Source of the DNA: Rhodococcus gordoniae
Lineage (GTDB): Bacteria > Actinomycetota > Actinomycetes > Mycobacteriales > Mycobacteriaceae
Length of the DNA stretch: 64,000 nucleotides
Direction: 5' to 3'
NCBI RefSeq assembly: GCF_001646655.1
Contig: NZ_LPZN01000050.1
Span: 62,001 to 126,000, forward strand
Below the pieces are notes generated by a model that ran no database searches, was not told where the DNA came from, and was given only the letters and a program-made list of their open reading frames with translations. Both the position numbers and the translations under genes were made by a program. Positions 7,196 to 16,008 of this stretch are shown here, one piece after another. How positions within the stretch are numbered: the first letter of the stretch is position 1; each line of letters opens with the position of its first letter.

Positions 7196-8029
7196 TCAGC
7201 CCTCGTCGGGTTCGGTCACGAAGTCCACGAGACGCTCCACCGCGCCGATGAGATGCGATTCGAGGTCCCGGAACGAGTTCACGGCGCCGTACACTCGTCG
7301 CCACCCCTCCTGCGGTGTGCCCCAGCCGAGTTCACGGCACACCCCGGTCTTCCAATCCTCGCCGCGCGGGATGGTGGGCCAGGCGTCGATGCCCACGGCC
7401 TTCGGCTGCACCGCCTGCCACACGTCGATGTAGGGATGGCCGGTGACCATGACGTGCGGACCGAGGTTCGCGGTGAGGCGCTCCTCCTTGGACCCGGTGA
7501 CCAGGTGGTCGGCGAGGACACCGACACGCCGGCCCGGTCCGGGCTCGAACTCGGCGAGGCGGGCACCGAGATTGTCGAGGCCCTCGAGCTGCTCGACGAC
7601 CACTCCCTCGACCCGCAGATCGTGTCCCCACACCCGTTCGACGAGGGCGGCGTCGTGCACGCCCTCCACCCAGATCCGGCTGCCCCGCGCCACGCGTGCC
7701 CGCGCACCGTCGACACGGGTCGATCCCGAGGCCGACCGGGTCGACCGCGCCGCGGGACGGGCCTTCGGCCGGACGAGGGTGACGGGCGTTCCGTCGACGA
7801 GGAACGCCGCGGGCCGCATCGCGAACAGCCGGGTACGTCCCTGCGCGTCCTCGAGTCGCACGAAATTGCCGTCGTAGGTCTTCTCGATGCCCACGATCGC
7901 ACCGCACCAACCGGATGCGGCGTCCTCGACGACGACACCGCGATCCGCTGCGAGTTCGGGAACGGCTTTCTTCTTCGTGCGGGCGTGACCGGCGTAGATG
8001 TCGCCGCCGTATATGTCGCGTGGGCTCAC
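7196..8029 (-). CDS. DUF3097 family protein
   Basis: 277 aa soluble protein. It contains the actinobacterial DUF3097 pattern: an N-terminal YGGDIYAGHARTKKK, the GIEKTYDGNFVRLEDAQGR strand region, then a large domain with VEGVHDAALVERVWGHDLRVEGVVVEQLEGLDNL (about residues 135-170) and HVMVTGHPYIDVWQ. The central part resembles a TOPRIM-like nuclease/primase fold (glutamate followed by a distant DHLV), but activity is unproven. Position matches Rv1486c. GTG 8029 was chosen over longer readings because it gives the family N-terminus and clears the divergent promoter of the next gene. Confidence 0.8.
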   Translation of the reverse strand: MSPRDIYGGDIYAGHARTKKKAVPELAADRGVVVEDAASGWCGAIVGIEKTYDGNFVRLEDAQGRTRLFAMRPAAFLVDGTPVTLVRPKARPAARSTRSASGSTRVDGARARVARGSRIWVEGVHDAALVERVWGHDLRVEGVVVEQLEGLDNLGARLAEFEPGPGRRVGVLADHLVTGSKEERLTANLGPHVMVTGHPYIDVWQAVQPKAVGIDAWPTIPRGEDWKTGVCRELGWGTPQEGWRRVYGAVNSFRDLESHLIGAVERLVDFVTEPDEG

Positions 8030-8097
8030 GCCGGTCGACCCTAGGACATCGCGCGGGGTGGCTCGCGCCGCCACGCCGACCACCGCCCGGGCCGCCG

Positions 8098-8109
8098 TAT
8101 GCTTTCGGG
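8098..8109 (+). promoter_or_regulatory. -10 hexamer of a leaderless transcript
   Basis: TATGCT at 8098-8103 ends 6 nt before the GTG at 8110, with no Shine-Dalgarno. This is the same geometry seen at other starts in the window. Confidence 0.45.
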
Positions 8110-8919
8110 GTGAGTTCTCCGAGCCTGACGCTGACCGTGTGGGCGGGGTCGTGGCTGTCCGGTCACACCTCCCCCGACGACGTGATCGACGCATTGCACG
8201 AATGGGCGCCGATGCATCTCGTGGGTGCCCACGATGCGGCGGCGGCCTCCGCAGCCGGCCTCCCCGACCGGGGGGTCGCCGACGGTGCCGCCCTGCTCCT
8301 CACCCTGATCCGCCGCGTCGACACCGCTGCCGGCGCGGGACTGCGTCTCGTCCTTCCCGCCCCGGGCGCCGTACACGCCCTGCCCGCCGGCACCGCGTTC
8401 GCATCGGCGGCACTCGCGGCAGGCGAAGGCGTCGTCGTGGGAGCGCCCGGTACCCCGGGACTGGGTCTGGTGCCCGTGATCGAGGGTCCGGACGTCCTGC
8501 GGTGGAATGTCTTCACCCTGCCCGCCGTCCTCGAGATCGCACTCGACGGTGGTCTGGGTGCGGCCGAGTACGCGATGAGGGAGGCGGTACGCGATGCCGC
8601 CTCCGCGCTGAGCGGTATCCCGACGGTCGGCACCGACGGTCGCCGTACCGACCCGCGAGCGGAGATCGCCGAGGAGGTCGCCGAACTCGCCCGGCACCGG
8701 TATCCCCCCTCACTGCCCGCACGTGCCGTGCGCATCCTCGACACCGCCGACCAGGTGGCGGCGATCCTCACCGTGGCGGGCCGCGGTGGGGGTCTGCGTG
8801 CCGGTTCGGTCTCGGGCACCGCCGGTCGCGAAGGCGCGCTGCAGCCGCTGTGGGCCGCGGTGCGCGAGGCCCGTGTCGGCGCGGTCGCGGCTGCTCTGCG
8901 GGCCGAGCATCATCGTTGA
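8110..8919 (+). CDS. Hypothetical actinobacterial protein
   Basis: 269 aa, alanine- and glycine-rich, soluble, no signal peptide or membrane helix. I recognise no domain. The sequence is orderly, with conserved-looking blocks (TVWAGSWLSGHTSPDDVIDA at the start, LRLVLPAPGAVHALP in the middle), and codon use is typical of the neighbours, so it is a real gene. It is divergent from DUF3097 across 80 nt. GTG 8110 was chosen because TATGCT lies 6 nt upstream, indicating a leaderless mRNA. No function is assigned. Confidence 0.7.
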   Translation: MSSPSLTLTVWAGSWLSGHTSPDDVIDALHEWAPMHLVGAHDAAAASAAGLPDRGVADGAALLLTLIRRVDTAAGAGLRLVLPAPGAVHALPAGTAFASAALAAGEGVVVGAPGTPGLGLVPVIEGPDVLRWNVFTLPAVLEIALDGGLGAAEYAMREAVRDAASALSGIPTVGTDGRRTDPRAEIAEEVAELARHRYPPSLPARAVRILDTADQVAAILTVAGRGGGLRAGSVSGTAGREGALQPLWAAVREARVGAVAAALRAEHHR

Positions 8920-9062: not shown

Positions 9063-9944
9063 GTGGGGACGAACAGGACAGTTCTCGATATGTCGCATCC
9101 TTCCGACCGATCCTGGCGTTCGAGCGCCACCCTCGCCCGTCTGCGCTCCGGACTCGCAACGCTCGGACCCGGCGAACAGCGCGTCGTGCGCACCGTGTTG
9201 ACCGAGCCCGCCGCGGTGGTGGAGTTGTCCACCGCCGAGCTGGCGGCAGCATCGGGCACCTCCCCGGCGACCGTCGTACGCGCCTGCCAGAGTCTCGGTT
9301 TCCGCGGTTTCCACCATCTTCGTCTCGAACTGGCCCGGGCGGCACCGGATCCCGAGCACCCTCCTGCTACTCCTCTGGATTCGGCGTTCTCGGCCGCGAC
9401 GGAAGCACTCACCGCGACCCGCGCAACCGTCGACGAGGCCGGTTTTGCACAGGTCGTCGACCTCGTCGTGAGAGCCCGTCGAATCCTGTTGGTAGGAAAC
9501 GGTTTCTCGTCGCCGCCGATCCAGGACGCGGCCCTGCGCCTCACCACGGCCGGTCGCAGTGTCGAGGCTCCGGTCGACATTCTCGGTCAGCAGTTCTCGG
9601 CCCGGCTCCTGACCGCCGACGACCTGTGTCTCGCGGTCAGCTATTCGGGCGCGAACACACACACTCTCCGGGCATGTACCGCCGCACACGAGCGCGGTGC
9701 CACGATCGTGTCGGTGACGAGCTACCCCGGCACACCACTGACACGCATCTCGGATCATGTGCTGATCGCCGGTGCAGGTGCCCACGAGAACGAAGCGGAC
9801 TCGTTCTCGGCACGCGTGTCGCAGAGCACGATCCTGTACGCGCTGCAACGAGCCGTGCTCGCCCACCCGGAGCATCCGGAGGTTCACACCGGCGCCCACG
9901 ACGTGGTGGCGGCAGCGCTGACCGACACACTTCCCGATTGTTAA
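9063..9944 (+). CDS. MurR/RpiR family transcriptional regulator
   Basis: 293 aa. An N-terminal HTH_6 domain (about residues 20-90) contains ELAAASGTSPATVVRACQSLGFRGFHHLRLEL. A C-terminal SIS domain (about 120-260) contains RRILLVGNGFSS and the phosphosugar-site pattern LAVSYSGANTHTL. RpiR proteins usually sense phosphorylated sugars through the SIS domain and control nearby uptake or catabolic genes. Here the next genes are a phosphatase fusion, an ABC importer and another phosphatase, which suggests the ligand is the imported organophosphate. The start is uncertain between GTG 9063 (GGAG 9 nt upstream) and ATG 9090. A TAACCT -10-like box lies at 9026-9031. Confidence 0.85.
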   Translation: MGTNRTVLDMSHPSDRSWRSSATLARLRSGLATLGPGEQRVVRTVLTEPAAVVELSTAELAAASGTSPATVVRACQSLGFRGFHHLRLELARAAPDPEHPPATPLDSAFSAATEALTATRATVDEAGFAQVVDLVVRARRILLVGNGFSSPPIQDAALRLTTAGRSVEAPVDILGQQFSARLLTADDLCLAVSYSGANTHTLRACTAAHERGATIVSVTSYPGTPLTRISDHVLIAGAGAHENEADSFSARVSQSTILYALQRAVLAHPEHPEVHTGAHDVVAAALTDTLPDC

Positions 9945-10013
9945 CCCGTTCGACAACGCCCGTTCCGGACGAAGGGGCCGAACGTTCGATCCAACCGCCC
10001 ACGATATGCCTTG

Positions 10014-10030
10014 CCGGAACGGTGTTCCGG
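10014..10030. promoter_or_regulatory. Inverted repeat, candidate operator of the RpiR regulator
   Basis: CCGGAAC (10014-10020), GGT, GTTCCGG (10024-10030) is a perfect 7-bp dyad in the 115-nt gap between the regulator gene and the phosphatase-fusion gene. It lies 30 nt before the GTG at 10060 and shortly after a TATGCC -10-like hexamer, where a bound repressor would block transcription. The assignment to RpiR is inference from location. Confidence 0.45.
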
Positions 10031-10059
10031 AGGCAGTGGAACGGTGAGAGAGGCAAATC

Positions 10060-11553
10060 GTGGAGTCCATCGAGGTCGACGGTGTGTTCAATGTGCGCTC
10101 GGTGTCGGGGCCGTACCTGGCCCCCGGCCGACTGTTCCGTTCCGCCACGCTCGACCACCTGACGGACGAAGGGCGGAAGGTGCTCGAGCAGATCGGGATC
10201 CGAACGGTCATCGATCTGCGGGACAACCGCGAGCGACCGGGGAGCACGGCCACCGCATCGTGGAACGTCCTGCACCATCCGCTCTACGATCCGGCGACCG
10301 GCCCACCCCGAAGCGGTGAGATCACCGCGATCTACCGCACCCTGCTCGACGAGCGCGGCACCGCTCTCACCGACGCCGTCCGGACCCTCGCGTACTCTCC
10401 CGCCCCGGCGCTCGTGCACTGCACCGCAGGCAAGGACCGCACCGGACTCGTCGTCGCAGTGGCGGCGGCCGCGGTCGGAGTACCCGACTCGGCGATCCTC
10501 GACGACTACTCGTGCTCGGGGCCTCGGCTGCGACCGTACCGCGAGAATGCGGTGCGGATTCTGCTCTCCGATCTGACGCTCGACCCGGCACAGTACGCGG
10601 AATCCGTGGAACTGCACCTGGATTCCCCGGCCCCGGCCCTGCAGTCGGCACTCGACCACATTCGTCGGCGACACGGGTCGGTGACGGGATATCTCGATGC
10701 CCACGGCTTCACCGCGGACGATCTCGCTGCTCTGCGAACCCGCCTGCTCGGCGAACCGGAACTGACGGTGTTGCACCTGAGCGACGTCCATGCACGCGGT
10801 ACCGAGGACCCCTCAGGGCGCGGTACCGAAGAATTCTTCTTCGGTGTCGACGGCGTGGGACGTCTCCGTGCGGTGATCGAGGGAGCCTCGACGTCGCGTC
10901 TACGGCCGGACATCGTGGTCGTCACAGGTGATCTCGCACATCGGCGGGCGGCCTCCACCTATCCGCGACTCGCTGCGGTCTTCGACGAGATCCGCACGCG
11001 TCTGCAGTGCCCGGTGCTCACGGTGCCGGGCAACCACGACGACCCGGTCGCCTTCGCGTCGGTGTTCGGCACGAATCCTGAGGAACACCTTCGAGGGTTC
11101 CGGGTGCTCGGTGTCGACACGAGTCCGGGGTCGCTCTCATCGGACGAGCTCGAGCGGTTGTCGCACGAACTCGCGACTCCGGCTCCGTACGGGACGGTGG
11201 TCGTGATGCACCATCCGCCGGTTCCGTCGCCTGCCGCCACGTTGACGGGCCGTGAACTCGCCCGCGCCGACGAATTCGCCGCGGTACTGCATGGTTCCGA
11301 TGTCACCGCGATCCTCGCCGGCCATTTCCATCACCCGATGGCCGGTGTGTTCGCGGGGGTCCCCGTCTGGGTCGGCGGCTCTCTGGCCTACCTGCAGGAC
11401 ATCGGAACGCCGGGGGACTCCCTCGTCGCCTTCGACGACCCTGCCTACTCGCTCGTGCAGTGTTCCCGTTCCGGTGTCCGTGCCCTACCCGTGGCACTGC
11501 GCACCCCCGAGGTGCTGTTCCGGTCGAGCCCTACGCTCACCGTCGCCTCCTGA
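10060..11553 (+). CDS. Tyrosine-phosphatase / calcineurin-like metallophosphoesterase fusion
   Basis: 497 aa, cytosolic, two enzymes in one chain. Residues 1-230 are a Y_phosphatase3-type phosphatase with FRSATLDHL, VIDLRDNRE and the P-loop HCTAGKDRTG (nucleophile C121, arginine R127). Residues 235-460 are a class III (GpdQ/CpdA-like) metallophosphoesterase with all metal-ligand motifs: D242-x-H244, GDLAH (D291), GNHD (N325, H326), H384/H385 and GHFHH (H422, H424). The phosphodiesterase could open a diester and the phosphatase could then remove phosphate from the monoester. The gene lies between an RpiR regulator and an ABC importer. GTG start, GAGAGG upstream. Substrate unknown. Confidence 0.85.
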   Translation: MESIEVDGVFNVRSVSGPYLAPGRLFRSATLDHLTDEGRKVLEQIGIRTVIDLRDNRERPGSTATASWNVLHHPLYDPATGPPRSGEITAIYRTLLDERGTALTDAVRTLAYSPAPALVHCTAGKDRTGLVVAVAAAAVGVPDSAILDDYSCSGPRLRPYRENAVRILLSDLTLDPAQYAESVELHLDSPAPALQSALDHIRRRHGSVTGYLDAHGFTADDLAALRTRLLGEPELTVLHLSDVHARGTEDPSGRGTEEFFFGVDGVGRLRAVIEGASTSRLRPDIVVVTGDLAHRRAASTYPRLAAVFDEIRTRLQCPVLTVPGNHDDPVAFASVFGTNPEEHLRGFRVLGVDTSPGSLSSDELERLSHELATPAPYGTVVVMHHPPVPSPAATLTGRELARADEFAAVLHGSDVTAILAGHFHHPMAGVFAGVPVWVGGSLAYLQDIGTPGDSLVAFDDPAYSLVQCSRSGVRALPVALRTPEVLFRSSPTLTVAS

Positions 11554-11593
11554 TCCTCATCTCCCTCCCCGTCGTCCCATCACAGGAGCACAA

Positions 11594-12625
11594 GTGACAT
11601 CCCTTCCCCGTCTCGTGTCGGTTGCCGCGCTCGGCACGGTCGCCGCATTCGCCCTCGCGGCCTGCTCGGAGCCGGCCGCCTCCGATTCGGAGCAGACCGG
11701 TTCGTCCACCGGCGACGCGCAGACCATCACGGTCTACACTTCCGAACCACAGGCCAAGATCGACGAGATCGCCGCAGTATTCACCGATGAGACAGGTATC
11801 GGTGTCGAGATCTTCCGGGCCGGCACCGGTGACCTGACGGCTCGGATCGAGGCCGAACGCACCACCGGTGAGATCGGCGCGGACGTGCTGCTCGCCGCCG
11901 ACGCCCCGACCTTCGAAGGCTACAAATCCGAAGGGCTCCTGCAGCAGTACACACCCACCGAGTCGAACGCGCTGAATCCCGATGTCGTCGACCCGGAGGG
12001 CTATTACGTCGGCACGCGGATCATCCCGACCGTCATCGCCTACAACACGACGGCCATCGAGACGCCCCCGACCTCGTGGAAGGAGCTCACCGATCCGGGC
12101 TATCTCGGACGCATCACCCTGCCGAACCCGAACGTCTCGGGTGCTGCGGCGTTCAACACCGCCGTCTGGCTCGACACCTCCGAGCTCGGCGAGCAGTGGC
12201 TCGCCGGTCTTGCCGCGAACGAGCCCGTCGTCGCCGAGAGCAACGGCCCGGTCGGCCAGGCGGTCGCGGCCGGGACGCAACCGGTCGGCATCGTCGTCGA
12301 CTATCTCGTCCGCGAACTCGCCGCGAAGGGATCTCCGATCGCGGTGTCCTATCCCACCGACGGTGTCCCGTACATCACCCAGCCCGCCGGCATCTTCACC
12401 GACTCCGACCGGACCGAAGCCGCCCAGAAGTTCGTCGATTTCCTCGTGAGCAGGAAGGGGCAGGAAATCGCGGTCTCACAGCAGTATCTTCCGGTGCGGG
12501 ACGACGTGGGCACACCTGCCGGTGCTCCCGCCCTGTCCGAACTCACGCTGCTGACACCGGACCTCCAGACGATCACGGACACCCAGGACGAGGCTGTCCG
12601 GAAGTTCGATGACCTCGTCGGCTGA
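11594..12625 (+). CDS. ABC transporter substrate-binding lipoprotein (Afu/Fbp/PhnS-like)
   Basis: 343 aa. A lipoprotein signal peptide ends in the lipobox LAACS (residues 18-22), then a type-II periplasmic binding fold with ITVYTSEPQAKIDEIAAVF, GADVLLAADAP and GTRIIPTVIAYNT. The family covers ferric-iron, 2-aminoethylphosphonate and sugar-phosphate binders (AfuA). At the position where ferric-binding members carry adjacent tyrosines this protein has VVDYLVREL, so iron is unlikely. With phosphatases and an RpiR regulator as neighbours, a phosphate ester is the better guess. GTG 11594 is preceded by AGGAG at 5 nt. The permease start lies inside its last codons. Confidence 0.8.
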   Translation: MTSLPRLVSVAALGTVAAFALAACSEPAASDSEQTGSSTGDAQTITVYTSEPQAKIDEIAAVFTDETGIGVEIFRAGTGDLTARIEAERTTGEIGADVLLAADAPTFEGYKSEGLLQQYTPTESNALNPDVVDPEGYYVGTRIIPTVIAYNTTAIETPPTSWKELTDPGYLGRITLPNPNVSGAAAFNTAVWLDTSELGEQWLAGLAANEPVVAESNGPVGQAVAAGTQPVGIVVDYLVRELAAKGSPIAVSYPTDGVPYITQPAGIFTDSDRTEAAQKFVDFLVSRKGQEIAVSQQYLPVRDDVGTPAGAPALSELTLLTPDLQTITDTQDEAVRKFDDLVG

Positions 12626-14276
12626 CCTCCGCACTCGGCCCGCCGCCCGCATGCCCTCCGGGCGGCGGGCCGATCCCGTCCTCGGTGTGCGGGTCGCGGT
12701 GTGGGTGTTCGTCGCCGCCGCGATCATCGCCCCACTCGCGACCGTGGTGGCGCTCGGCGCGAACGGGCGGCACATCGGGCAACTCCTCGACGACGATATC
12801 GCCGGGGCCGCGATCAACAGCGTCGTCTCGGCGGGATGCTCGGCGTTGTTCGCCGTCGTCCTGGCCACCGCGATGGCGTTGTTCCTCGACCGTACCGATC
12901 TACCCGGCCGAGGCTCCCTCCGCCTGATCATGCTGTCGCCCCTGTTGATTCCGCCGTTCGTCGGTGCCATCGCCTGGACGGGGCTGCTCGGCCCCAGCGG
13001 AATGGTCAACCGCTTCTGGACCGACCACGTCGGAGGCCCGCTCTGGAACATCTACGGGGGCGACGGGGTGGTGTTCCTCCTGACGGTGCACTCCTATCCG
13101 ATGGCATATCTCATCATTTCGACCGCGCTACGCAGGATCCCCGGAGACCTCGAGCAGGTGGCGCGCATCGGCGGAGCCTCGCCCTGGCAGGCGATGCACA
13201 CCGTGACGATCCCCCTGCTGCGACCGGCACTTCTCGCCGCGTTCACCCTCACTGCGGTGGGCAACCTCGCCGACTTCGGCATTCCGGCCCTCGTCGGGCT
13301 GCCCGAGCGATACACGACCCTGTCGACGATGGTCTACCGGTACATCCAGTCGGGGACGGTCGATCGTCCCCTCGAGGTGGTGTCCACCATCGGCGTCGCC
13401 CTGCTGGCGCTCGCAGTGCTCGCCGTGGTGACGGACCGCGGATTGTCCCGCCGGCACCGGCAACTCGACGGAGCCGTCACCGCACGACGACAGATCCGGC
13501 TCGGGCGTGCGCGCGTCCCGGCCGGTGTCGCCGCGTGGGTCGTCGGCCTCGGCCTGACCGTCCTGCCGGTCCTGGCTCTCGCGACGCAGGCGCTGCTACC
13601 GGCGCCGGGCGTTCCGCTGACCTGGGACAACTTGACCCTGGACAGCATGGTTGCGGCCGTGACCGCGCCGGGAACCTCGGTCGGAGTGAAGAATTCGCTG
13701 ATTTTGGCCGTCGGCGCAGGCGTCGTGTGCGCGGTGGCCGGCCTGGCGATCGGCGTGCTCACCACGCGCACCCGATCCCGCGACAATGCAGGGCTCGACC
13801 TGACGGTGATGCTCCCGCAGGCGGTGCCCGGCCTCGTCATCGCGGTCGGATGGCTCATTCTGGGCCGGTACACCGGATTGTTCGACACGCGGTGGGTGAT
13901 CCTCTGCGCCTATGTGACGGCTTTCCTCGCAGTCGTCGTCCAGGCCGTACGCGCCCCGCTGTCGACCACGTCCGAGTCCCTGGAAGAGGTGGCCCGCACA
14001 TCCGGCGCGTCGCGGCTTCGAGCGCTGCGGGACGTGCCGTGGGCGATGACCGTACCGGCCGCCGTGACCGGAGGCGTGCTGGTCGCCGTGACCGCGGTAC
14101 GTGAACTGACGATGTCGGTGCTGCTCGTCGCGCCGGGCACCCAGACGCTGGGTGTGTCGATCTTCAATCTGCAGCAGGCCGGCGACTACAACGCCGCATC
14201 GGCATTGTCCCTGCTCGTCGCGCTCGTGGGAATCGCCGGCCTCGGTGCGGTCACGGCTTCCCGTGCGGCTCGCTGA
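12609..14276 (+). CDS. ABC importer permease, duplicated FbpB/AfuB type
   Basis: 555 aa with about twelve transmembrane helices in two homologous halves, each with an ATPase-docking EAA loop. These are EQVARIGGASPWQAMHTVTI (about residues 182-201) and EEVARTSGASRLRALRDVPW (about 457-476). One chain therefore supplies both channel subunits, the normal layout for this importer class. It overlaps the binding-protein gene by 17 nt and is followed 26 nt later by the ATPase gene, so the three genes form one transporter. Often auto-labelled iron permease; context argues for an organic phosphate instead. Confidence 0.85.
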   Translation: MTSSADLRTRPAARMPSGRRADPVLGVRVAVWVFVAAAIIAPLATVVALGANGRHIGQLLDDDIAGAAINSVVSAGCSALFAVVLATAMALFLDRTDLPGRGSLRLIMLSPLLIPPFVGAIAWTGLLGPSGMVNRFWTDHVGGPLWNIYGGDGVVFLLTVHSYPMAYLIISTALRRIPGDLEQVARIGGASPWQAMHTVTIPLLRPALLAAFTLTAVGNLADFGIPALVGLPERYTTLSTMVYRYIQSGTVDRPLEVVSTIGVALLALAVLAVVTDRGLSRRHRQLDGAVTARRQIRLGRARVPAGVAAWVVGLGLTVLPVLALATQALLPAPGVPLTWDNLTLDSMVAAVTAPGTSVGVKNSLILAVGAGVVCAVAGLAIGVLTTRTRSRDNAGLDLTVMLPQAVPGLVIAVGWLILGRYTGLFDTRWVILCAYVTAFLAVVVQAVRAPLSTTSESLEEVARTSGASRLRALRDVPWAMTVPAAVTGGVLVAVTAVRELTMSVLLVAPGTQTLGVSIFNLQQAGDYNAASALSLLVALVGIAGLGAVTASRAAR

Positions 14277-14302
14277 ACTACTCACAGATCGGATAATTTT
14301 TC

Positions 14303-15400
14303 ATGTCCGCGATCACCCTGACCGGTGTCGACCTGCGCTTCCCCGACGGCACCGCAGGACTGTCCGGCATCGACCTCGACGTTCGGGACGGCGAATTCGT
14401 AGCCCTCGTCGGTCCGTCCGGATCGGGGAAGACGACCCTGCTCCGCACGGTGGCCGGCTTTGTCGACCCCACCGAGGGCACGATCCGGCTCGGTGAAGAC
14501 GTCGTTGCCGACGGCACTCGGAGTGTCCCCCCGGAGAAGCGCCGTCTGGGCATGGTGTTCCAGAACCACGCCATCTGGCCGCACCGGAACGTGGGCCGCA
14601 ATGTCGCGTATCCGCTGGAGATCGCGAAGCTCCCGCGTGCCCACCGCGCGTCGCGGGTCGCCGAGGTGCTCGAGCTGGTGGGGCTTCCGGGTCTGGAGAA
14701 GCGGGATCCGGCGACCCTGTCCGGCGGGCAGCGACAACGGGTGGCGCTCGCGCGCGCACTTGCCGGCCGGCCCCGCGCTCTGTTGCTCGACGAGGCGTTG
14801 TCCGCCCTCGACGAGCCGCTCCGCGACCGGTTGCGTCTCGAATTGCGCACCCTCACCCGCTCCCAGCAACTCACGGTCGTCCACGTGACACACGATCGTG
14901 CCGAGGCGCTGGCGCTCGCCGACCGCGTCGTGGTGCTCGACCACGGCCGGATCCTGCAGATCGGCACACCCGAGGATCTCGTGCTCCGCCCGCGGTCCGC
15001 CTTCGTCGCCTCGTTCTTGTCGGATGCGAATCTGCTGACCGGAAGCGTGTCGGCGGACGGCTTCGTCAGCGACGACGGTGCCGTCCGGCTGCGACCGGAT
15101 GCGATTCCGGACGATGCCTCCGGGCCGGGCACTCTCGCAGTTCTTCCCGGCGACATCACGTTGACGGCACCACAGGACGCGCCGAGGCAGGGCATCGTGA
15201 TGTCGTCGCTGTTCGGACGCGATGCCAGCGACGTCGTCGTCTCGTGCCACGGTATCGAATTCCGTTGTGCCGTCGCAGGGTTACGTCCGGCGGTCGGAGA
15301 CCGCGTGGGAGTGTCCGTCCACCGCGCGTTGTTCTACCCGTCGACCGGCAGGGTGACGACCGACGAGGACGCGAACGTGTTGTCCGGGGTGGGTCGATGA
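14303..15400 (+). CDS. ABC importer ATP-binding protein (FbpC/AfuC/PotA type)
   Basis: 365 aa. Residues 1-235 are the nucleotide-binding domain: Walker A GPSGSGKTTLL (about 34-44), signature LSGGQRQRVALARAL (about 135-149), Walker B LLLDEALSALDEP and switch histidine VHVTHDRAEAL. Note ALSALD where most have PLSALD. Residues 240-365 form a TOBE-like regulatory domain. It powers the permease encoded just upstream. Its stop overlaps the start of the histidine-phosphatase gene by the ATGA arrangement, so that enzyme is translationally coupled to the transporter. Confidence 0.87.
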   Translation: MSAITLTGVDLRFPDGTAGLSGIDLDVRDGEFVALVGPSGSGKTTLLRTVAGFVDPTEGTIRLGEDVVADGTRSVPPEKRRLGMVFQNHAIWPHRNVGRNVAYPLEIAKLPRAHRASRVAEVLELVGLPGLEKRDPATLSGGQRQRVALARALAGRPRALLLDEALSALDEPLRDRLRLELRTLTRSQQLTVVHVTHDRAEALALADRVVVLDHGRILQIGTPEDLVLRPRSAFVASFLSDANLLTGSVSADGFVSDDGAVRLRPDAIPDDASGPGTLAVLPGDITLTAPQDAPRQGIVMSSLFGRDASDVVVSCHGIEFRCAVAGLRPAVGDRVGVSVHRALFYPSTGRVTTDEDANVLSGVGR

Positions 15401-16008
15401 ACACCACCCGACTGGCTCTCGTACGGCACGGGCGTACCGACTGGAATCGGCGCGGCCTGCTGCAGGGCAGCACCGACGTCCCACTCGACGAGGTCGGCCG
15501 GGAGCAGGCACGGGGCGCCGCGCGCCTACTCGACCTCCTCGACCCCACCGGCTGGGACACCGTTGTGTCCTCGCCGCTGTCACGCGCGTACGACACCGGC
15601 CGAATCGTGGCCGCCCATCTGTGCATCGGGATGTCCGGAACGATTCCGGATCTGGCCGAACGTACCTACGGCGATGCCGAGGGCTCGACCCGGGAGGACG
15701 CCGAGGCGCGCTGGCCCGGCGGGAATTTCCCCGGACTCGAACCCCTGGGGGCAGTCGCCACGAGAGGCGTACGCGCACTCGACGTCGCTGCCGCGATGCA
15801 CCCCGGCTGCCGGATCGTGGTCGTCTCGCACGGCGCACTGATCCGCGCTGTACTCGACCGGTTGTCACCGGAACCCGCGCCGCGCATCGTCAACGGCGCC
15901 GTGAGCGAACTCGAATGGTCCGGCCGGTGGGTGGTGCGATCGGTCAACCGCACCGCGCCACCGGACCCGGACGCCCGCGCGGGGCGGGTCAGCTCCGCTG
16001 CGCGGTGA
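15397..16008 (+). CDS. Histidine phosphatase superfamily (phosphoglycerate-mutase-like) protein
   Basis: 203 aa. The catalytic LVRHGRTDWN lies at residues 7-16 (phospho-acceptor His10), the conserved acid region is DLAERTYGDAEG and the second histidine sits in VVVSHGALIRAV (about 143-154). The sequence fits a broad-specificity phosphomonoesterase rather than a glycolytic mutase, as it lacks the longer mutase insertions. ATG 15397 overlaps the ATPase stop, which makes it the third phosphatase activity in this operon. It ends tail-to-tail with the methyltransferase gene, overlapping by 20 nt. Confidence 0.85.
   Translation: MNTTRLALVRHGRTDWNRRGLLQGSTDVPLDEVGREQARGAARLLDLLDPTGWDTVVSSPLSRAYDTGRIVAAHLCIGMSGTIPDLAERTYGDAEGSTREDAEARWPGGNFPGLEPLGAVATRGVRALDVAAAMHPGCRIVVVSHGALIRAVLDRLSPEPAPRIVNGAVSELEWSGRWVVRSVNRTAPPDPDARAGRVSSAAR

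Follow-up and report, generated by a model that had tools for sequence, protein, structure and literature searches.

Bacterial use of phosphodiesters has mostly been described through enzymes that act outside the cytoplasm (GlpQ, PhoD and PhoX). A route that leads into the cell is provided by the acc operon of the Agrobacterium Ti plasmid, in which the solute-binding protein (SBP) AccA belongs to family 5. According to the portions of the literature that describe this operon, AccA together with AccBCDE imports agrocinopine, which is cleaved by AccF; AccG is designated a phosphatase, and the regulator AccR responds not to the intact opine but to the arabinose-2-phosphate that AccF produces (PMC4526662). 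Here we compare this and other systems with six genes at 9063..16008 on the forward strand of a 64,000-nucleotide stretch of Rhodococcus gordoniae (contig NZ_LPZN01000050.1, positions 62,001 to 126,000), hereafter the window. They encode an RpiR-family regulator, a fused phosphatase and phosphoesterase, a three-subunit ATP-binding cassette (ABC) importer and a histidine phosphatase, and they form a conserved operon. With modest confidence, we lean towards reading it as an inducible organophosphate-scavenging operon, through which a small phosphodiester would be imported whole and then dismantled inside the cell.

If that reading is right, the operon would match acc in its logic: a binding-protein importer for an intact sugar phosphodiester, an intracellular phosphodiesterase, a phosphatase and a repressor responsive to the monoester. 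This likeness is one of function, drawn for enzymes and regulators without sequence comparison, and the parts differ. In the window, a single dual permease and a single ATPase accompany an SBP of the SBP_bac_6 type, whereas acc, in the portions of the report that cover it, has four ABC subunits (AccB–E) and a known opine as its ligand (PMC4526662). Whole uptake of a phosphate ester also has a parallel in GpxB and UgpB, the Phaeobacter glycerol-1/3-phosphate importers. Their SBPs, unlike the window's, are of the PhnT and CUT1 families, their ligands are monoesters, and the passages that describe them mention no hydrolase partners (PMC12718374).

An earlier sequence-only reading of the window had reported six open reading frames (ORFs) on one strand, and our ORF and domain check found the coordinates and domains as it had described them. 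The first gene (9063..9944, +) encodes the RpiR-family regulator, with HTH_6 (Pfam, 1.5e-15) and SIS (6.6e-15) domains; ATG 9090 could be an alternative to its GTG start at 9063. The second (10060..11553, +) is a single ORF of 497 residues that fuses an N-terminal Y_phosphatase3 domain (PF13350, 4.4e-47; here PTP) to a C-terminal calcineurin-like phosphoesterase (Metallophos, PF00149, 6.1e-15; here MPE), and the solved chains nearest to it are Rv0805 (1.6e-31) and PtpB (7.5e-17). A lipoprotein SBP of the Afu/Fbp/PhnS2 type follows (11594..12625, +; SBP_bac_6, 9.4e-31), most likely starting at GTG 11594, directly downstream of AGGAG. The importer is completed by a dual-domain permease of 555 residues (12609..14276, +; PF00528, BPD_transp_1, in two stretches) and an ATPase (14303..15400, +; PF00005, ABC_tran, 8.3e-35), and the last gene (15397..16008, +) encodes a branch 1 histidine phosphatase (His_Phos_1, PF00300, 5e-37). 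Spacing is tight throughout: 40 bp separate the fusion gene from the SBP gene, the SBP and permease genes overlap by 17 nt, 26 bp lie between permease and ATPase, and the ATPase and histidine phosphatase genes share an ATGA overlap (15397-15400), again as first noted. The catalytic motifs are intact in the phosphatase (HCTAGKDRTG), the phosphoesterase (SDVH, TGDL, GNHD and GHFH) and the histidine phosphatase (RHG). The block has a G+C content of about 0.67–0.70, similar to its surroundings; a sigma-70 promoter scan returned no sites, and a terminator scan returned one against 1.9 expected, which is uninformative.

Searching genome contigs with the fusion protein, we kept the best 79 loci, although more exist. 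Among these, 34 loci, all outside the window, carry a close orthologue of the SBP; we call them type A, and their hosts include Rhodococcus, Leucobacter and Microbacterium. The complete six-part set is present in 28 of the 34, bearing out the co-occurrence that the sequence-only reading had looked to in other genomes. RpiR is encoded in 33 (it is absent from L025), never more than 1.1 kb from PTP (L069). The two enzyme domains are fused in six type-A loci (four from Rhodococcus, L025 and L049) and lie on adjacent separate genes in the other 28. Of the 32 loci whose contig extends far enough, 29 have the histidine phosphatase and L070, L071 and L072 lack it; the contigs of L060 and L063 end too early to judge. 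All 34 type-A loci keep the PTP motif and the MPE metal motifs GNHD, GHxH and [TS]GD[LI] (TGD[LI] alone in 29, others having for example SGDL), and the MPE DxH motif was matched by pattern in 27, while the other seven have it just 5' of the trimmed start. The histidine phosphatases have RHG in 29/29 and the second catalytic His as [SA]HG in 26, with THG in the remaining three. The ATPases carry LSGGQ (32/32) and Walker A (31/32, the exception being a conservative variant, as GASGSGKTT), and 32 of 33 RpiR orthologues fit the SIS motif pattern (the miss is L077). Of the neighbouring gene families up to 6 kb away, just two, ABC-ATPase-like and LacI-like (names that are our reading of the sequences, from an ORF filter that may have overlooked genes), were seen in three genera each, so that the borders of the operon are set by conservation. 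Chance neighbourhood was considered and ruled out, because the gene order recurs at 55–88% SBP identity amid changing surroundings.

Because these loci had been found through the enzymes, we also searched with the SBP profile only. It hit 4 of 394 genomes in the class and 25 of 398 in the family of G213 (Microbacteriaceae; 26 places) at E ≤ 1e-60, tallies that may be low since five best candidates per genome were scored, and 5 of 18 in the genus at E ≤ 1e-40. Pooled, these make 32 distinct places including the window, many in the same species as the enzyme-found loci; one contig (L163) ends directly upstream of the SBP and is not judgeable, which leaves 31. Beside the SBP stand MPE in 28, RpiR in 27 and PTP in 26 of these places, so the phosphatases are co-conserved with the importer, a point on which the sequence-only reading had staked its proposal. 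RpiR lies 1.7 and 3.0 kb off in L149 and L150. The histidine phosphatase accompanies 23 of the 26 MPE-bearing places with enough contig (28 bear MPE in all).

The operon also has a conserved candidate operator. A search for inverted repeats found GTTYC-N9-GRAAC in the gap that separates RpiR from the first of the enzyme genes; the window has it as GTTCC-N9-GGAAC at 10024..10042 (+), the presumed RpiR site, 17 nt 5' of the start codon of the fusion gene. In the gap between RpiR and PTP of 34 regions (the window and 33 loci), the pattern occurs exactly in 16, with at most one mismatch in 28 and with at most two in all 34; shuffled gaps gave means of 0.02 and 1.06 regions, with maxima of 1 and 6. 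Since the pattern had been chosen on these training loci, we scanned held-out loci, and their ten gaps yielded five exact sites, nine with at most one mismatch and ten with at most two (without shuffles). Some of the held-out loci are close kin of training loci (L140, L164), and two of the gaps are long (1.7 and 3.0 kb), with sites near the PTP end. The pattern is rare elsewhere in these operons: within 200 bp, at most one mismatch was seen before RpiR in 0/33 loci, SBP in 1/34, permease in 1/33 and ATPase in 0/32, against 27/33 before PTP, and relaxing to two mismatches raised these to 6, 4, 4 and 1, against 33/33. L025, which has no RpiR, has only a two-mismatch site, and in L151 and L152 the operator precedes MPE instead (two and one mismatches). 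Among loci that carry only the importer, no site with two or fewer mismatches turned up in L137 (500 bp spanning the start of the SBP) or in L162 (500 bp), while L136 has two matches, one with a single mismatch that falls within the reading frame of the SBP and another, with two mismatches, upstream. The operator is rare in the corresponding gaps of a second class of loci, type B (see below; 2/29 with at most one mismatch, 11/29 with at most two), and hence is not shared with it. Together these data tie RpiR to the enzymes and importer as one regulated unit, in which RpiR would bind the operator. One further repeat was seen in this gap, a 27-bp perfect inverted repeat in Leucobacter celer (L057, 9671-9725).

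What the importer carries was approached through the SBP. A profile of 35 sequences (the window and the 34 type-A loci), with residues matched by sequence alignment, scored against the Protein Data Bank best with 8x1a (6.2e-23), followed by AfuA (1.2e-21), P5PA (3.3e-19), HitA (6.4e-17) and PhnS (3.2e-13). In the passages that describe AfuA, its phosphate residues are Ser37, Ser148, Gly149 and Thr150 and its sugar residues His205, Asp206 and Glu229, with His205 and Glu229 each essential for binding glucose-6-phosphate (PMC4546632). The first three phosphate positions correspond to T78, S182 and G183 of our SBP, and Asp206 to D236; all are kept in 35/35 SBPs. A phosphate cradle is therefore plausible from the alignment, and two arginines that never vary, R75 and R142, may contribute charge there. 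D236 is the sole one of the three sugar residues retained, so the rest of the ligand is unreadable from sequence. The sequence-only reading had drawn a parallel to AfuA, and it holds for Ser37, Ser148, Gly149 and Asp206 and fails at Thr150, His205 and Glu229. The passages on AfuABC (PMC4546632) and P5PA (PMC8427247) also mention no linked hydrolases.

We propose that the lipoprotein would capture an intact small phosphodiester, perhaps, as a guess, a glycerophosphodiester or a sugar or polyol phosphodiester, and that the ABC importer would carry it in. The MPE domain would then split it into an alcohol and a phosphomonoester, from which the Y_phosphatase3 domain, the histidine phosphatase or both would release phosphate. 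The SIS domain of RpiR would sense the phosphomonoester as inducer, and repression at the operator before the enzyme gene would be lifted. With importer, diesterase and phosphatases co-conserved behind one operator, uptake of an intact ester and its hydrolysis inside the cell, as the sequence-only reading had suggested, is the best reading, with ligand and activities still conjectural; no enzyme is tied to the importer more constantly than MPE, which speaks for a diester. A link between importers bearing ferric names and phosphorus is on record for P. putida, where, in the part of the study describing them, phosphorus starvation induces two 'Fe3+ ABC transporter' proteins that are missing from a phoBR mutant (PMC5082522).

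The enzyme pair also occurs beside other importers. PTP and MPE lie side by side in 77 of the best 79 loci (in L082 and L087 the match covers PTP alone), and ABC importer genes adjoin them in 77/77. In addition to the 34 type-A loci, 35 have a CUT1-type SBP and permease and 8 a partial such set. The resulting type B shares RpiR, PTP, MPE and an importer with type A but differs in that its importer is CUT1 (SBP_bac_1/8), its MPE mostly groups with Rv0805-like sequences and the operator is rare. Thirteen of the type-B-like loci (L030-L042) do not count as independent, since they carry one element in near-identical form. An Arthrobacter plasmid (NZ_CP084557) bears a type-B cluster in the order RpiR-ATPase-SBP-PTP-MPE-permease-permease, Agrobacterium pAt and a Rhizobium plasmid have MPE-SBP-permeases-PTP, and two roseobacter plasmids have a peptide-type importer followed by MPE-PTP; by Pfam, the SBPs are SBP_bac_1/8 in L101, L083 and L102 and SBP_bac_5 in L103. 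Ten further plasmid neighbourhoods were read, of which L174 and L175 have both enzymes and an importer, and L169, L170 and L176 have MPE and an importer with PTP absent from the stretch read. A possible counterpart of type B is MED193_11288-11308 of Phaeobacter, neighbouring locus tags in Table 1 of PMC10132767 for a PhoB-dependent 'predicted phosphodiesterase' and 'sugar ABC transporter' induced by phosphorus starvation; the likeness is suggested by the names given there.

In the MPE tree (96 rows; midpoint-rooted, with long branches and weak deep forks), type A forms one clade (98/77), most alphaproteobacterial rows stand apart, and a further group (100/98) unites 35 of the 37 type-B rows with 14 of the 15 Rv0805-like ones. 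The latter are 15 loci with MPE-only matches, of which a single one lies about 1.5 kb or less from CUT1-type importer genes. Type-A MPE has its metal-binding motifs in common with Rv0805-like class III phosphodiesterases and a separate clade placement. Type A again forms one clade (100/99) in the PTP tree (78 rows), where A and B are joined at 97/85 together with three other rows, with B_L094 outside, and the alphaproteobacterial rows, L171 among them, are apart (99/95). These topologies suggest that MPE at least was recruited more than once beside PTP and an importer. We tentatively go a step further, to a view we hold to be slightly less likely than not: PTP-MPE may be a portable two-step module for dismantling phosphodiesters, attached repeatedly to at least three unrelated classes of ABC importer (Afu/Fbp-like, CUT1/Ugp-like and peptide/Acc-like) in Actinomycetota and Alphaproteobacteria. 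It would then serve a widespread and so far undescribed route of whole-phosphodiester uptake for phosphorus or carbon, with an RpiR circuit of its own in type A.

Some of these neighbourhoods have features of their own. The hosts of L030-L042 are Microbacterium, Leucobacter, Brevibacterium, Arthrobacter, Herbiconiux and Microcella, with near-equal match scores, as of a recently moved element. On the M. paraoxydans plasmid NZ_CP064874 (L100), a related cluster with several apparently broken genes sits amid transposases near a chloramphenicol efflux gene. In the Nitratireductor plasmid pOM-1 (L169), a gene of the endonuclease/exonuclease/phosphatase family follows the importer, as if replacing PTP. 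In Sulfitobacter alexandrii (L174, 1-7729), an Na/Pi cotransporter gene directly precedes the peptide-type importer and MPE-PTP, an arrangement that fits phosphate release.

Several observations weigh against uptake of a whole phosphodiester by a dedicated operon. The AfuA positions Thr150, His205 and Glu229 have become A184, V235 and I/V261 in 35/35 SBPs, so the non-phosphate part of the ligand must differ from AfuA's. A bare SBP-permease-ATPase set, with neither enzymes nor regulator, occurs in 3 of the 31 places (L136 in G339, L137 in G001 and L162 in G525), and two others (L151, L152) have RpiR-MPE-importer without PTP. The Rhodococcus locus L137 even has its bare importer at the chromosomal site where the window has the full operon. 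The SBPs of L136 and L137 keep every ligand position inspected, while that of L162 deviates (G77A, D80E). Among the ten plasmid neighbourhoods, MPE stands apart from any importer operon in four (L167, L168, L172, L173) and PTP occurs without MPE in L171, so neither family is confined to an importer role. Finally, the 6 kb around the operon contain no recurring gene by which the released alcohol could be used. The sequence-only reading had placed a set of phosphatases around the importer, and from these counts the linkage is strong without being obligatory, and the fusion is not general. The SBP tree has the Rhodococcus group nested next to SBPs of Micrococcales (98/93), with L137 basal to that group and L136 inside it; given its midpoint root and the long rows of L136 and L162, this is compatible with transfer from Micrococcales followed by enzyme losses.

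We weighed other ligands against the same evidence. An AfuABC-like importer whose cargo is a phosphomonoester, such as a sugar phosphate, with MPE as an accessory or monoesterase, would agree with the usual role of RpiR/SIS proteins as phosphosugar sensors. It would also agree with the largely kept phosphate cradle and with AfuA and P5PA being the best-scoring chains of known ligand, as far as the passages on P5PA go (PMC8427247). We nevertheless regard it as unlikely: no other enzyme, PTP included, accompanies the importer as constantly as MPE does, two or three hydrolases would be more than a monoester needs, and V and I/V stand at the positions of His205 and Glu229. In salvage of nucleotides, cyclic or otherwise, which we judge improbable, MPE would be a cyclic-nucleotide phosphodiesterase and PTP or the histidine phosphatase a nucleotidase. 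MPE is indeed homologous to Rv0805 and weakly to SpdA, but the type-A clade is separate from the Rv0805-like enzymes (in a tree with long branches and a midpoint root), the scores for SpdA (76.5 of 400 bits) and CpdA (60.9 of 225 bits) are far under cut-off, and neither of the two recurring neighbour families is a nucleoside family. A signalling module of a protein tyrosine phosphatase and a cyclic-nucleotide phosphodiesterase, sharing an operon with the transporter by chance, would account for the domain names and the homology to PtpB and Rv0805. It is hard to square with ABC importer genes beside the adjacent pair in every one of the 77 loci, of two importer classes, and with a third class in the roseobacter plasmids, and we consider it very improbable.

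The names now attached to the importer raise two further possibilities. The family models of the putative 2-aminoethylphosphonate (2-AEP) importer PhnS2/PhnU2/PhnT2 (TIGR03261, TIGR03262, TIGR03265), which also has three subunits, are the top NCBIfam models for all three of ours, and sub-threshold phosphonatase matches occur in 24/24 genomes, with top scores of 106-112 of 220 bits in G001, G662 and G798. The importer scores, however, are far under the curated cut-offs (124.9 of 392.75, 156.6 of 593.25 and 282.3 of 457.7 bits), and the linked enzymes are phosphoester hydrolases. Phosphonatase (TIGR01422) passed its cut-off in 0 of 24 SBP-positive genomes (of 31), and likewise in 0 of 14 controls, with no positive control, while PhnJ was found in 4 of the 24, not including the window's genome (G000), with E. 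coli positive. We therefore disfavour 2-AEP import as a general explanation and give it little credence. As for iron, the SBP is homologous to FbpA and HitA, which speaks for a ferric importer of the Fbp/Hit type with the phosphatases as bystanders. In FbpA a tandem Tyr and a His are iron ligands; in the HitA alignment the tandem Tyr corresponds to Y/S237 and L238 and the His position to P52 in 35/35 SBPs. With the ferric ligands lost, iron is not a plausible ligand, and we reject ferric import as barely credible.

The chromosomal setting of the operon varies. The sequence-only reading had placed the insertion between hemH and DUF3097 genes; we found the block between orf8, the gene beside DUF3097, and a methyltransferase gene. 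In 12 of 13 operon-free Rhodococcus genomes compared (G005 was left out), the two genes are at most 170 bp apart in 7, orf8 is at most 180 bp from hemH in 2, and the gaps are wider in 3. In R. koreensis (L023) and R. jostii (L024) the operon lies elsewhere, since the window's flanking genes were found nowhere in the fetched flanks. The gene at 7915-8919 (+), beside DUF3097, is kept in 12/12 operon-free Rhodococcus stretches at 59-93% identity and has no match among Pfam or NCBIfam families at E ≤ 0.001.

The sequence-only reading knew of no described pathway with this set of genes. We likewise found no description of the combination, the operator or the repeated assembly in the open-access literature, outside which most subscription journals lie, while the logic has a precedent in the portions of the acc report cited above (PMC4526662). 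The parts themselves are known. If our reading is true, many soil and marine bacteria would take phosphodiesters in whole, and importers now named as ferric or 2-AEP transporters would need correction. The SBP, the fused enzyme and the operator offer concrete handles for finding the substrate.

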